A stretch of 22,913 nt of DNA from a virus. The notes under the pieces were generated by a model. The model was not told where the DNA came from. It was given only the letters and a program-made list of their open reading frames with translations, and did no database searches. Below, piece by piece: positions 20,429-22,913 of this stretch; the first letter of the stretch is position 1; every line of letters begins with the position of its first letter. Both the position numbers and the translations under genes were made by a program. The DNA is taken from IMG/VR virus record IMGVR_UViG_3300020438_000294, positions 1-22,913 of that record; one strand, written 5' to 3'.

Positions 20429-21577
20429 TTAGAATGCAGCGTTACCTGAAGAACCTGCAGCAGCACCTGCTACTAGTTCAACAGCACAAGCTGGATTAAG
20501 ATAGTCAGCACCCATTGCCAAACGACCAAGAATAACGTCACCCTGATAAATCACGGATACGTCACCACTGGTTACTTGGACAGAAGGACCAATTGCTTCA
20601 ACACAACCTGCAGCTTCTTTCTGGAAGATCAAACCACAAGAGTTAGCGAATTCTGTTTCTTCACCGTACTCGTTGTTTATTCCAGTTACGTCAGCAGCAG
20701 CATCTTCTACAGCAGCTTCTACGAAAGAACCTACATTACCAGGAGAAGTTACTCCAGGGTTTGTAGCTGATGCAGAACCATACTTAGTACCATACTTACT
20801 CATGAACGGAATGTTCATTGACTTGTAGATCTTGATACCAGCTATCTCAATGATGCCGTTACCAGACTGTAAAGCAGTACCTTGTACGTCTCTGTTCACA
20901 AGACCATTAGATCCTACAGCTTGGATAAGCTCGTAGTACTGTCTTGGGTTAAGTACACCCACACGACCATCGGAGCTAACGCCCTTCTCGTCTAGTGCAG
21001 CTGCAGCGTCATAAAACGCATTGATTAGAGAAGCAGCAACGTAAGCATCAGATCCTTGGTTGTTAGTACCAACACGAATCTGTGTACCACCTGGCTCAAC
21101 AAAGTTAGCCTTAGTGATAGGTGATGCAGCTCTAGCTCCACGTGTGATAGCTCTAAAGATTAGACGGTCATACTTCTCTGCGAGTGCGTAACCAATCTTC
21201 TTAGAGATCTCTCCACGAAGCTCATAATGAGCAAGTGTCTCGTCCAGCTCGTAAACGAAAGCTGAACTAATAAGTAGATCATCAACAGTTATAGTTTTTT
21301 CTGCTATTGGTGGTGCGCCATCGGAGTTACCGAGGATGCTTTGACCAGGAACATGATACTCAGCTGTTGTTCTACCTGTATAAATAAACTGAAGAGACTT
21401 ACCGTTCTTTAGGGTTCTCTTCATAATTAGATCCCTAGCAATTGTATTGTTTTGGAATCCTTTGAACATCTCTCCTGAGAATAATTTCAGGTAAAGTGCT
21501 CTCTTGTCGCCTGCACCGTTGGCTTGACCCAGTTGGGTAAGATCGGCTAAAGGCTCATTACTATTTTGATGTGCCAT
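20429..21577 (-). CDS. Major capsid protein, T7 gp10-like
   Basis: A 382-residue HK97-fold capsid protein of the T7 gp10A type (T7: 345 residues). Landmarks: ALYLKLFSGEMFKGFQNNTI, IYTGRTTAEYHVPGQSILG, ISSAFVYELDETLAHYELRG, SKKIGYALAEKYDRLIFRAI and GIIEIAGIKIYKSMNIPF. It forms the icosahedral shell. A Gly/Ala/Ser-rich insert lies at about residues 265-305 (GTKYGSASATNPGVTSPGNV), probably a surface loop. The ATG at 21577 has no clear Shine-Dalgarno; the upstream 240 nt are AT-rich near the start and strongly structured further up. No frameshifted minor form (as T7 gp10B) is visible, since the stop is followed directly by the terminator. Confidence 0.96.
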   Translation of the reverse strand: MAHQNSNEPLADLTQLGQANGAGDKRALYLKLFSGEMFKGFQNNTIARDLIMKRTLKNGKSLQFIYTGRTTAEYHVPGQSILGNSDGAPPIAEKTITVDDLLISSAFVYELDETLAHYELRGEISKKIGYALAEKYDRLIFRAITRGARAASPITKANFVEPGGTQIRVGTNNQGSDAYVAASLINAFYDAAAALDEKGVSSDGRVGVLNPRQYYELIQAVGSNGLVNRDVQGTALQSGNGIIEIAGIKIYKSMNIPFMSKYGTKYGSASATNPGVTSPGNVGSFVEAAVEDAAADVTGINNEYGEETEFANSCGLIFQKEAAGCVEAIGPSVQVTSGDVSVIYQGDVILGRLAMGADYLNPACAVELVAGAAAGSSGNAAF

Positions 21578-21629: not shown

Positions 21630-21739
21630 TTAATTCGAAGTTTTGTGGTCTATCCCACCGTCTAGACGGCTAATAGGTATCCTGCGTACAGGGCTAAAAG
21701 CCAAATCAGTCAGAGATCCGACACTGAGGTGTCTCTGAC
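21630..21739 (-). promoter_or_regulatory. Structured leader upstream of the capsid gene
   Basis: The minus-strand RNA can form several local hairpins. At 21739-21709, GTCAGA pairs with TCTGAC, and inside it GACAC pairs with GTGTC around a CTCA loop, with GGATC bulged. At about 21692-21681, CCTG pairs with CAGG around TACG. At 21669-21658 there is a perfect 12-nt palindrome CCGTCTAGACGG. None is followed by a T-run, so they are not terminators. In T7 the mRNA start and RNase III processing sites for gene 10 lie in the equivalent place; a processing, stabilising or promoter role is inferred. I cannot identify a phage RNA polymerase promoter from one copy. Confidence 0.45.
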
Positions 21740-21828
21740 CTGTGGTAGTTCAAGTGCATTGTCTCTACCAAAATAAAAAAGGATAGAGCCATAAAGACTG
21801 CTATCCATAATTCATTAATCTTTTTCAC
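21706..21828 (-). CDS. Possible 40-aa single-pass membrane peptide (GTG start)
   Basis: From a GTG at 21828 the frame reads MKKINELWIAVFMALSFFIL, then VETMHLNYHRSETPQCRISD. A basic N-terminus is followed by a clean membrane-length hydrophobic stretch (residues 8-21). The GTG lies inside the end of the 39-aa gene upstream, in another frame, as seen for other small genes here. Evidence against it: no Shine-Dalgarno is visible, and the same DNA also carries a possible terminator and hairpins. An alternative ATG frame (MDSSLYGSILFYFG, 32 aa) covers the same stretch and is less protein-like. Confidence 0.4.
   Translation of the reverse strand: MKKINELWIAVFMALSFFILVETMHLNYHRSETPQCRISD
21775..21806 (-). 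terminator. Possible weak intrinsic terminator upstream of the capsid leader
   Basis: GGATAG pairs with CTATCC (6 pairs) around a 14-nt loop, directly followed by TTTTTT and, one base later, TTTT. The position, after the psbA/beta-barrel/39-aa genes and before the capsid leader, suits an operon end. The stem is short and only half G-C, and it lies inside a possible small gene, so it may be chance. Confidence 0.35.
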
Positions 21829-22300: not shown

Positions 22301-22363
22301 TTAAATTGATTTTGATTTTGTGTAAGAAATGCCGCGATACTTGTATGTGACTTTGATTGTCAT
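22301..22363 (-). CDS. 20-aa peptide with TYRG-like motif, downstream of riboswitch-like RNA
   Basis: A 20-codon gene that begins MTIKVTYKYRGISYTK. The core YRGxxY with flanking basic and polar residues resembles the short cyanobacterial DUF4278-type proteins (MTLTYRGxxY). GGAG lies 7 nt before the ATG but is enclosed in a small hairpin (TTGGA-GATT-TCCAA, 22376-22363) that also takes in the first base of the ATG, so translation is likely controlled. Codons 8-10 (AAGTATCG) are perfectly complementary to the first 8 nt after the psbA stop. Short peptides behind this class of RNA gave the name 'Downstream-peptide' to the RNA family. The function of the peptide is unknown to me; a nitrogen-related regulator is a guess. 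Confidence 0.6.
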   Translation of the reverse strand: MTIKVTYKYRGISYTKSKSI

Positions 22364-22376
22364 TGGAAATCTCCAA

Positions 22377-22440
22377 GTACCTCAGACCCCGTTCCATGTC
22401 TAAGGTTTCATGCGTCCCAAAGGGATGAACGGAAGTATCG
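22377..22440 (-). promoter_or_regulatory. Glutamine-riboswitch-like RNA (Downstream-peptide type) behind psbA
   Basis: Directly after the psbA stop, the RNA holds CCGTTC (22432-22427), hairpin TCCC-TTT-GGGA (22425-22415), ACGCATGAAACC, and a hairpin CCTTAGAC / GTCTGAGG (8 pairs, one wobble; 22405-22398 with 22387-22380). That hairpin's 10-nt loop contains GAACGG (22394-22389). CCGTTC and GAACGG are perfect complements, giving a pseudoknot. The CGTTCA-TCC...GGACG...GAACG arrangement is what I remember of the glnA and Downstream-peptide RNAs of cyanobacteria and cyanophages, reported to bind glutamine. A 3' hairpin then masks the ribosome site of the peptide gene. The class assignment is from memory of the consensus; the pairings are seen directly. 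Confidence 0.62.
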
Positions 22441-22913
22441 TTAAGCTATAGGTGCGATCTCTTTAGCCGCTAGATCAAGCGGAAAGTTATGTGCGTTTCT
22501 TTCGTGCATTACTTCCATACCTAAGTCAGCCCTGTTAAGAACGTCAGCCCATGTAGGAATTGTTTTTCCACTAGCATCAACTACGGACTGATTGAAATTG
22601 AATCCATTGAGGTTAAATGCCATTGTAGAAATTCCCATGGAGGTAAGCCATATGCAAACGACTGGCCAAGTAGCAAGGAAGAAATGAAGACTACGACTAT
22701 TATTGAAAGAAGCATATTGGAAAATTAATCTCCCGAAGTAGCCATGTGCGGCTACGATGTTATAGGTTTCATCCTCTTGTCCAAACTTGTACCCATAGTT
22801 CTGCGATACAAGTCCAGTTGTTTGTCTAACAAGTGAGGAAGTAACAAGACTTCCATGCATAGCAGCGAATAAAGCTCCACCGAATACCCCTGCAACACCG
22901 AGCATATGGAACG
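22441..22913 (-). CDS. psbA: Photosystem II reaction centre protein D1, C-terminal part
   Basis: The window holds residues from F197 to the stop. Using standard D1 numbering, H198 (ligand of the P680 chlorophyll), H215 and H272 (non-haem iron), H252 and S264 (plastoquinone QB pocket), and the manganese-cluster ligands H332, E333, H337, D342 and A344 are all present. The tail after A344 has only 8 residues (AKEIAPIA), shorter than the 16 usual in cyanobacteria. Cyanophage psbA is expressed during infection to replace fast-turning-over host D1 and keep energy supply going. The gene lies upstream of the capsid gene, as in other psbA-bearing cyanopodoviruses, and a riboswitch-like RNA follows its stop codon directly. 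The first 196 codons are outside the window. Confidence 0.99.

Follow-up and report, generated by a model that had tools for sequence, protein, structure and literature searches.

For the Glutamine-II (Downstream-peptide, RF01704) riboswitches of marine cyanobacteria, the aptamer class, its ligand and the link to short ORFs are already known (PMC2864571, PMC6698751, PMC6316151). In the crystal structure, glutamine binding stabilises the pseudoknot, which has been proposed to free the ribosome site (PMC6698751). These type 2 switches lie before DUF4278 genes, whose expression is activated when glutamine is high, and DUF4278 (PF14105) makes up the N-terminal region of IF17, a glutamine synthetase inactivating factor (PMC6316151). 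In Prochlorococcus, the Yfr6 RNA likewise combines a Downstream-peptide leader with a downstream reading frame of 33 aa (PMC1242208, PMC2864571). On the viral side, glutamine riboswitches have been reported in T4-like cyanophages, other marine myophages and a methylophage (PMC9964418, PMC9602691, PMC9004378). Our search of the literature on cyanopodoviruses and riboswitches, with most subscription journals outside its coverage, found no paper on the module described here. An early description of the Downstream-peptide motif reportedly already included one cyanophage.

We interrogated the region behind viral psbA in a 22,913-nt stretch of virus DNA (IMG/VR record IMGVR_UViG_3300020438_000294), called the window below. 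Phage loci of this kind resemble the marine picocyanobacterial Glutamine-II loci in aptamer sequence and fold (pseudoknot PK, stems P1 and P2), in the short ORF that follows and in the YRG motif of its product. Unlike their host counterparts, the phage aptamers are intercistronic, usually 7-16 nt after the stop codon of another gene, and the phage peptides have about 13-40 aa and mostly one repeat, whereas the host versions compared encode triple-repeat proteins of 55-65 aa. Yfr6 also differs, as it is a host transcript of about 240 nt that lies outside any phage operon. DUF4278 proteins, including the N-terminal part of IF17, share the YRG..Y motif and form the family behind cyanobacterial glutamine riboswitches (PMC6316151), whereas the 20-aa phage peptide is a single repeat without an HMM match. 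Glutamine-I (glnA, RF01739) RNAs have the ligand core in common with Glutamine-II, and their tandem copies in viral contigs precede YRG ORFs, mostly with two motifs; they differ in having a three-way junction without the Glutamine-II pseudoknot. What appears to be new in these podoviruses is that the aptamer is almost always linked to a YRG micropeptide gene upstream of the capsid gene; the likely use of peptide codons in closing helices appears new as well.

A Glutamine-II aptamer and a micropeptide ORF behind psbA

We scanned the whole window with covariance models of all Rfam families, and RF01704 was the sole match above its curated cut-off. The covariance-model alignment covers the full length of the model (1-60). 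The aptamer, its helices and the surrounding genes all lie on the minus strand:

22441..22905 (minus): psbA (D1), 3' part only, truncated at the window end; PF00124, E 5.8e-24; phrog_182
22381..22434 (minus): Glutamine-II (Downstream-peptide) aptamer, RF01704; 46.6 bits, gathering score 33, E 1.3e-8
22389..22432 (minus): pseudoknot PK, CCGTTC (22432-22427) with GAACGG (22394-22389); sequence and Rfam consensus match
22415..22425 (minus): stem P1, TCCC (22425-22422) with GGGA (22418-22415); Rfam alignment
22380..22405 (minus): stem P2, 8 pairs, CCTTAGAC (22405-22398) with GTCTGAGG (22387-22380); GAACGG in the loop, covariation
22301..22363 (minus): ATG ORF of 20 codons, MTIKVTYKYRGISYTKSKSI, YRG motif at codons 9-11; YRG ORF conserved behind phage aptamers
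21934..22296 (minus): next gene downstream, cyanophage outer-membrane-like beta-barrel protein; PF24653 Phage_OMP, E 8.6e-38
20429..21577 (minus): major capsid protein gene; tblastn identity of 74-82% to the major capsid proteins of P-SSP7, S-RIP2 and others

The window aptamer contains the CGUUC/GAACG pseudoknot, P1, P2 and the conserved CGCA linker, and the 20-codon ORF lies directly 3' of it, matching the short downstream ORF typical of Glutamine-II RNAs. An earlier, sequence-only reading of this DNA had proposed a pseudoknot-capable fold, with CCGTTC facing GAACGG in the loop of an 8-pair hairpin, then a tiny 20-codon gene, and had related the RNA to the Downstream-peptide and glnA classes. 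Both the fold and the gene (22363-22301) are where it had placed them, and the covariance-model search that it proposed settled on the Downstream-peptide class (46.6 bits against a cut-off of 33). The glnA class is supported by a sub-threshold match of 16.1 bits and by the CGUUCA..GGAACG ligand core, which is common to both glutamine classes. Since that score falls below the cut-off of 35 bits, and a Glutamine-II pseudoknot and a covarying P2 are present, we rejected this class and see next to no chance that the window RNA is a glnA-type riboswitch.

We regard the aptamer, by its Rfam E-value and the P2 covariation described below, as certainly beyond chance. The window RNA falls in the Glutamine-II class, for which selective L-glutamine binding and ligand-dependent gene control would be expected, and it is sound to infer from this class that the phage senses glutamine. 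The gap between the D1 stop codon and the aptamer match is 6 nt, no promoter-like or terminator-like sites were found around the module, and the capsid gene lies further downstream in the same orientation; this layout fits an aptamer and micropeptide that would be carried on a transcript shared with photosynthesis and capsid genes.

Covariation of stem P2

The sequence-only reading had also named compensatory changes in relatives as a check, and these were found in P2. Across 39 distinct P2 stems, 265 of 273 cells are paired, compared with 191 when the partners are shuffled, and six pairs are changed on both sides among 46 distinct aptamers. On a tree of 99 sequences we counted 37 double-compensatory branches and 5 breaks for P2, and every slid register gave 0 double-compensatory branches. 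These counts show strong covariation in P2 that is still going on among the phages. The innermost pair of P1 in relatives is CG, AU or UA, and in the SS120-1 pseudoknot the innermost pair is U-A instead of C-G (CGTTT/AAACG). Parts of the aptamer were fixed by the patterns used to scan contigs, which builds some of the pseudoknot conservation into that set; P1 and P2 were left largely unconstrained by these patterns.

Distribution in relatives and gene neighbourhood

When whole records were searched, RF01704 scored above its cut-off in 15 of 25 isolate cyanopodovirus genomes. The first ten isolate loci, including P-SSP7, 9515-10a, NATL1A-7 and S-RIP2, all show RF01704 above cut-off (10/10), each followed by a YRG ORF. 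This ORF is absent from the gene listings of annotated short-peptide phages. A larger set of 328 phage Glutamine-II aptamers was assembled from five pattern scans of viral contigs together with the isolates, and a YRG ORF lies 3' of 318 of them, while 8 of the other 10 end at a contig edge. Real exceptions are L448 (near 835-900), which is without a YRG ORF, and L505 (near 216-330), in which the motif reads YYKR. A distinct host subgroup in Prochlorococcus (loci such as L137, L132 and L159; CGTTCATCC..GGACGCATGAAATGGGAGTAGGGAACGGGATTCTCATTAACT) has no YRG ORF in the stretch examined.

Diverged versions of the aptamer occur in two isolates. In S-SBP1 (L643, about 2180-2215) it is reduced to its 3' part, with 19.6 bits, and the YRG ORF is intact. 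In S-CBP3 (L648, 2130-2175) the aptamer is nearer glnA (21.7 bits, below cut-off) than Glutamine-II (16.1 bits); it occupies the same locus, ahead of an intact YRG peptide ORF of the same kind, and may represent class replacement or decay.

A capsid gene is found on the same strand within 3 kb in 184 of the 187 loci with enough sequence. Upstream, D1 is encoded in 83 of 147 loci, and an Hli protein or others can take its place. SS120-1 and S-TIP28 have the module, and psbA is not annotated in the region preceding their capsid gene; S-B28, 7B11-B and DSL-LC07 have psbA and lack the module. Because module presence does not track psbA and D1 is upstream in only that fraction of loci, we rejected psbA as a functional partner; as far as gene order indicates, the capsid gene is the neighbour that stays constant, and the association with psbA is incidental. 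The upstream ORF stops 7-16 nt before the pseudoknot in 141 of the 161 loci that have a stop within 60 nt upstream, a closeness that may partly reflect the compactness of phage genomes.

Since most related viruses examined keep the aptamer-ORF pair just ahead of the capsid gene, the arrangement suggests that cyanopodoviruses may read the nitrogen state of the host during infection. The switch and micropeptide motif are spread across cyanopodoviruses including the model phage P-SSP7, in which the peptide gene is unannotated. With P-SSP7, an existing infection system can be used to ask two things: which role the small DUF4278/YRG proteins of marine picocyanobacteria play, and whether an RNA sensor lets a lytic phage follow the nitrogen state of its host during late gene expression.

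The micropeptide and its likeness to DUF4278

The window peptide contains YRGISY, and its relatives typically carry YRG[VI]xY. Phage peptides are mostly 13-21 or 27-40 residues long, with a pN/pS around YRG of 0.48 in short-peptide phages and 0.33 in long-peptide phages. We consider the 20-codon ORF, on the strength of the YRG ORFs behind 318 of 328 aptamers, to be certainly beyond chance. Compared with Pfam, the 20-aa peptide of the window gave no match, and the DUF4278 threshold of 25.3 bits was not reached; the longer phage peptides behind Glutamine-II aptamers score 14-18 bits against DUF4278, also under the cut-off. The 55-65 aa proteins encoded at host Glutamine-II loci have three YR[GR] motifs and match DUF4278 with 39-42 bits (E 9e-10 to 9e-11). 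The phage ORF looks like one YRG repeat of these host riboswitch-controlled proteins. As the motif also occurs in host genes controlled by this switch, our leading guess, and a doubtful one, is that the peptide might act in, or interfere with, the control of host glutamine-dependent nitrogen assimilation when glutamine is plentiful.

In other viral contigs (such as L002, L013, L021, L027 and L029), tandem glnA-type aptamers lie ahead of ORFs with two YRG motifs, and the product of one such ORF is above the DUF4278 cut-off (27.9 bits).

Pairings around the ribosome site

Four further features of the window surround the start of the ORF and the strand that faces it:

22433..22440 (minus): 5' flank strand CGATACTT, adjoining the D1 stop codon; exact 8-nt complement of codons 8-10, P0-like helix
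22371..22374 (minus): Shine-Dalgarno-like GGAG, 7 nt ahead of the ATG
22363..22376 (minus): hairpin TTGGA/TCCAA (22376-22372 with 22367-22363), covering GGAG and the A of the ATG; predicted probability 0.91
22335..22342 (minus): AAGTATCG, codons 8-10, the stretch that the flank strand can pair with; shares bases with CAAGTA (22343-22338)

Three pairings around this site had been described from the sequence: a small hairpin hiding the ribosome site and the first base of the ATG, a perfect 8-nt complement between the start of the RNA and codons 8-10, and a TTCAT/ATGAA pairing that would compete with the pseudoknot. The hairpin is present in its described place, but we rejected it as a conserved part of the switch, since a perfect 5-bp hairpin occurs there in only 4 of 318 leaders. 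TTCAT/ATGAA is also present in the sequence, and 162 of 194 distinct phage aptamers could form three or more contiguous pairs there; however, it cannot covary, because the pseudoknot holds its 5' side constant, and folding of the window gives it a probability of only 0.20, so its standing as a demonstrated alternative state was given up. The complement is exact, with CGATACTT at 22440-22433 matching AAGTATCG at 22342-22335. Taken alone, it is weakly significant, and chance was dropped as its explanation because relatives show flank:codon pairing above controls.

For this helix, called P0, we anchored the 20 nt before CGTTC ungapped against the YRG codons and compared registers. Family-wide, the register in which flank position -x faces codon position +x reaches z 7.5 (next best 2.6), and it ranks top separately in short- and long-peptide phages; under stricter thinning of similar sequences its z is 4.9, 2.6 and 1.3. 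A second helix, P3, joins the ribosome-site leader to the codons, and in the window CAAGTA (22343-22338) can pair with the leader TACTTG (22379-22374). Leaders of short-peptide phages are predicted to form a duplex of -8.03 kcal/mol with codons 2 to Tyr of their own ORF, compared with -5.38 kcal/mol for permuted partners (z 11.7, or 6.1 with sequences under 75% identity). Long-peptide phages have no P3 signal, but show flank:leader pairing with z 8.0. Synonymous recoding and single-strand shuffling support both P3 and P0, with far-upstream and downstream-codon control regions null, and RNAalifold finds P3 unprompted in two alignments, giving ACTTG/CAAGT in the clade of the window.

On the tree, P3 has only 3 + 2 double compensations, with broken single changes about as many as kept ones. 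P0 does hardly better than slid controls and shows no double compensations beyond them; a sister-pair count finds it often broken among close relatives, and its register differs between clades. Host switches gave no P0- or P3-like signal among only 7 distinct host sequences. Because the tree-aware and sister-pair counts gave little support to flank:codon pairing, we toned down this claim: P3 is probable in short-peptide phages, P0 is plausible, and the pairings of the window itself are possible.

In the window, the flank CGATACTT and the leader TACTTG both hold TACTT and compete for the same codons, and when the window is folded without the pseudoknot, flank pairing is preferred (probability 0.96). 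With the aptamer locked, predicted ribosome-site access in the window is unchanged, and over 46 sequences mean access is 0.26 free versus 0.29 locked, which is no clear effect, so locked-aptamer folding was discarded as proof of switching. The unchanged access on locking and the competing strands together indicate that folding alone does not explain glutamine switching.

Proposed mechanism and alternative explanations

We propose that an intercistronic Glutamine-II riboswitch of a marine cyanopodovirus acts on the translation of a 20-residue micropeptide, and we give this reading a probability of about 0.82. Translational control is the simplest reading because of the intercistronic place, the 6-nt gap and the lack of promoter-like or terminator-like sites. 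As expected from the class, L-glutamine would stabilise the pseudoknot and raise translation of the next ORF, and without glutamine the ribosome site would be held closed. Comparison among relatives lends moderate support to a closed state that may be made from the peptide's own codons. Specifically, in P0 the flank strand, which runs from the upstream stop codon to the aptamer, would pair with the Arg-Gly-Val codons, and in the shortest-peptide phages P3 would join the ribosome-site leader to codons 2 to Tyr; we put the odds that P0 and P3 are closing helices slightly above even. Since the flank strand starts right behind the upstream stop codon, a ribosome ending upstream would cover it, and coupling to upstream translation is possible. 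A more speculative extension, which we think unlikely to hold, would give the gene a dual job. Its codons would form the P0 and P3 that close its own ribosome site, and its product would mimic one DUF4278 repeat, tuning host nitrogen assimilation to glutamine during capsid production; masking of P0 by the ribosome ending upstream would serve as a second input.

Alternatively, the aptamer may work and P0 and P3 may be by-products of shared ancestry and codon constraint, with the true platform being P2 and the pseudoknot beside the ribosome site. This would account for the few tree-supported compensations outside P2, for a P0 register that differs between clades and is broken in many, and for the missing signal in host switches, of which only 7 distinct sequences were compared. 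The own-versus-permuted, synonymous-recoding and shuffling tests are nevertheless all positive with null controls, P0 was found in two phage groups separately, and RNAalifold predicts P3 without prompting. We rate this alternative as a serious competitor, at somewhat less than even odds.

Another possibility is that the main target of the riboswitch is the late operon: the YRG ORF would be a leader cistron, and glutamine-dependent ribosome traffic through it would tune the capsid gene or downstream mRNA. The capsid gene as constant neighbour (184/187 loci, with D1 upstream in only 83/147), the module kept in SS120-1 and S-TIP28 where psbA is not annotated, and a second RNA-like element, conserved upstream of the capsid ATG and 51-93 nt away from it in most loci, all point this way. 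Against it, the distance from the YRG ORF to the capsid gene and the intervening genes vary widely, peptide conservation (pN/pS 0.48 and 0.33) exceeds what a leader cistron needs, and the peptide motif matches host proteins under the same switch, which makes a mainly operon-directed role improbable in our view. Far less credible still is an aptamer that is a relic inherited from a host gene, without a regulatory role in the phage. Such decay could be read from S-SBP1, which retains the 3' part alone (19.6 bits), and from the diverged aptamer of S-CBP3, both with intact YRG ORFs, but P2 still covaries strongly among phages, and in 318 of 328 phage loci the aptamer has kept its YRG ORF.

Conserved elements near the capsid gene

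A second strongly conserved RNA-like element lies at 21646-21705 (minus) of the window and recurs in about 300 related loci (for example, L122:1625-1740), in most of them at 51-93 nt before the capsid ATG. It has the consensus TTGGC..GCC[small stem]GATACC..GCCGTCTAGACGGTGGGATAGACCA, and the small stem varies with compensation: one of its pairs is CG 61 times, GC 59 times and TA 22 times. The element matches no Rfam family. Just before it (window 21708-21740, minus; L122 about 1600-1670; L123:2739-2809), there is either a hairpin whose CACCTCAGAGTCGGA loop is conserved, a hairpin resembling a tRNA T-arm (GGGAGGTGCGAGTCCTCCC) or a true tRNA gene, and the site is perhaps an RNA-processing site before the capsid gene. 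NATL1A-7 has a real tRNA-Gly gene before the second element, and in P-SSP7 the hairpin and the final codons of the YRG ORF could together fold like a tRNA.
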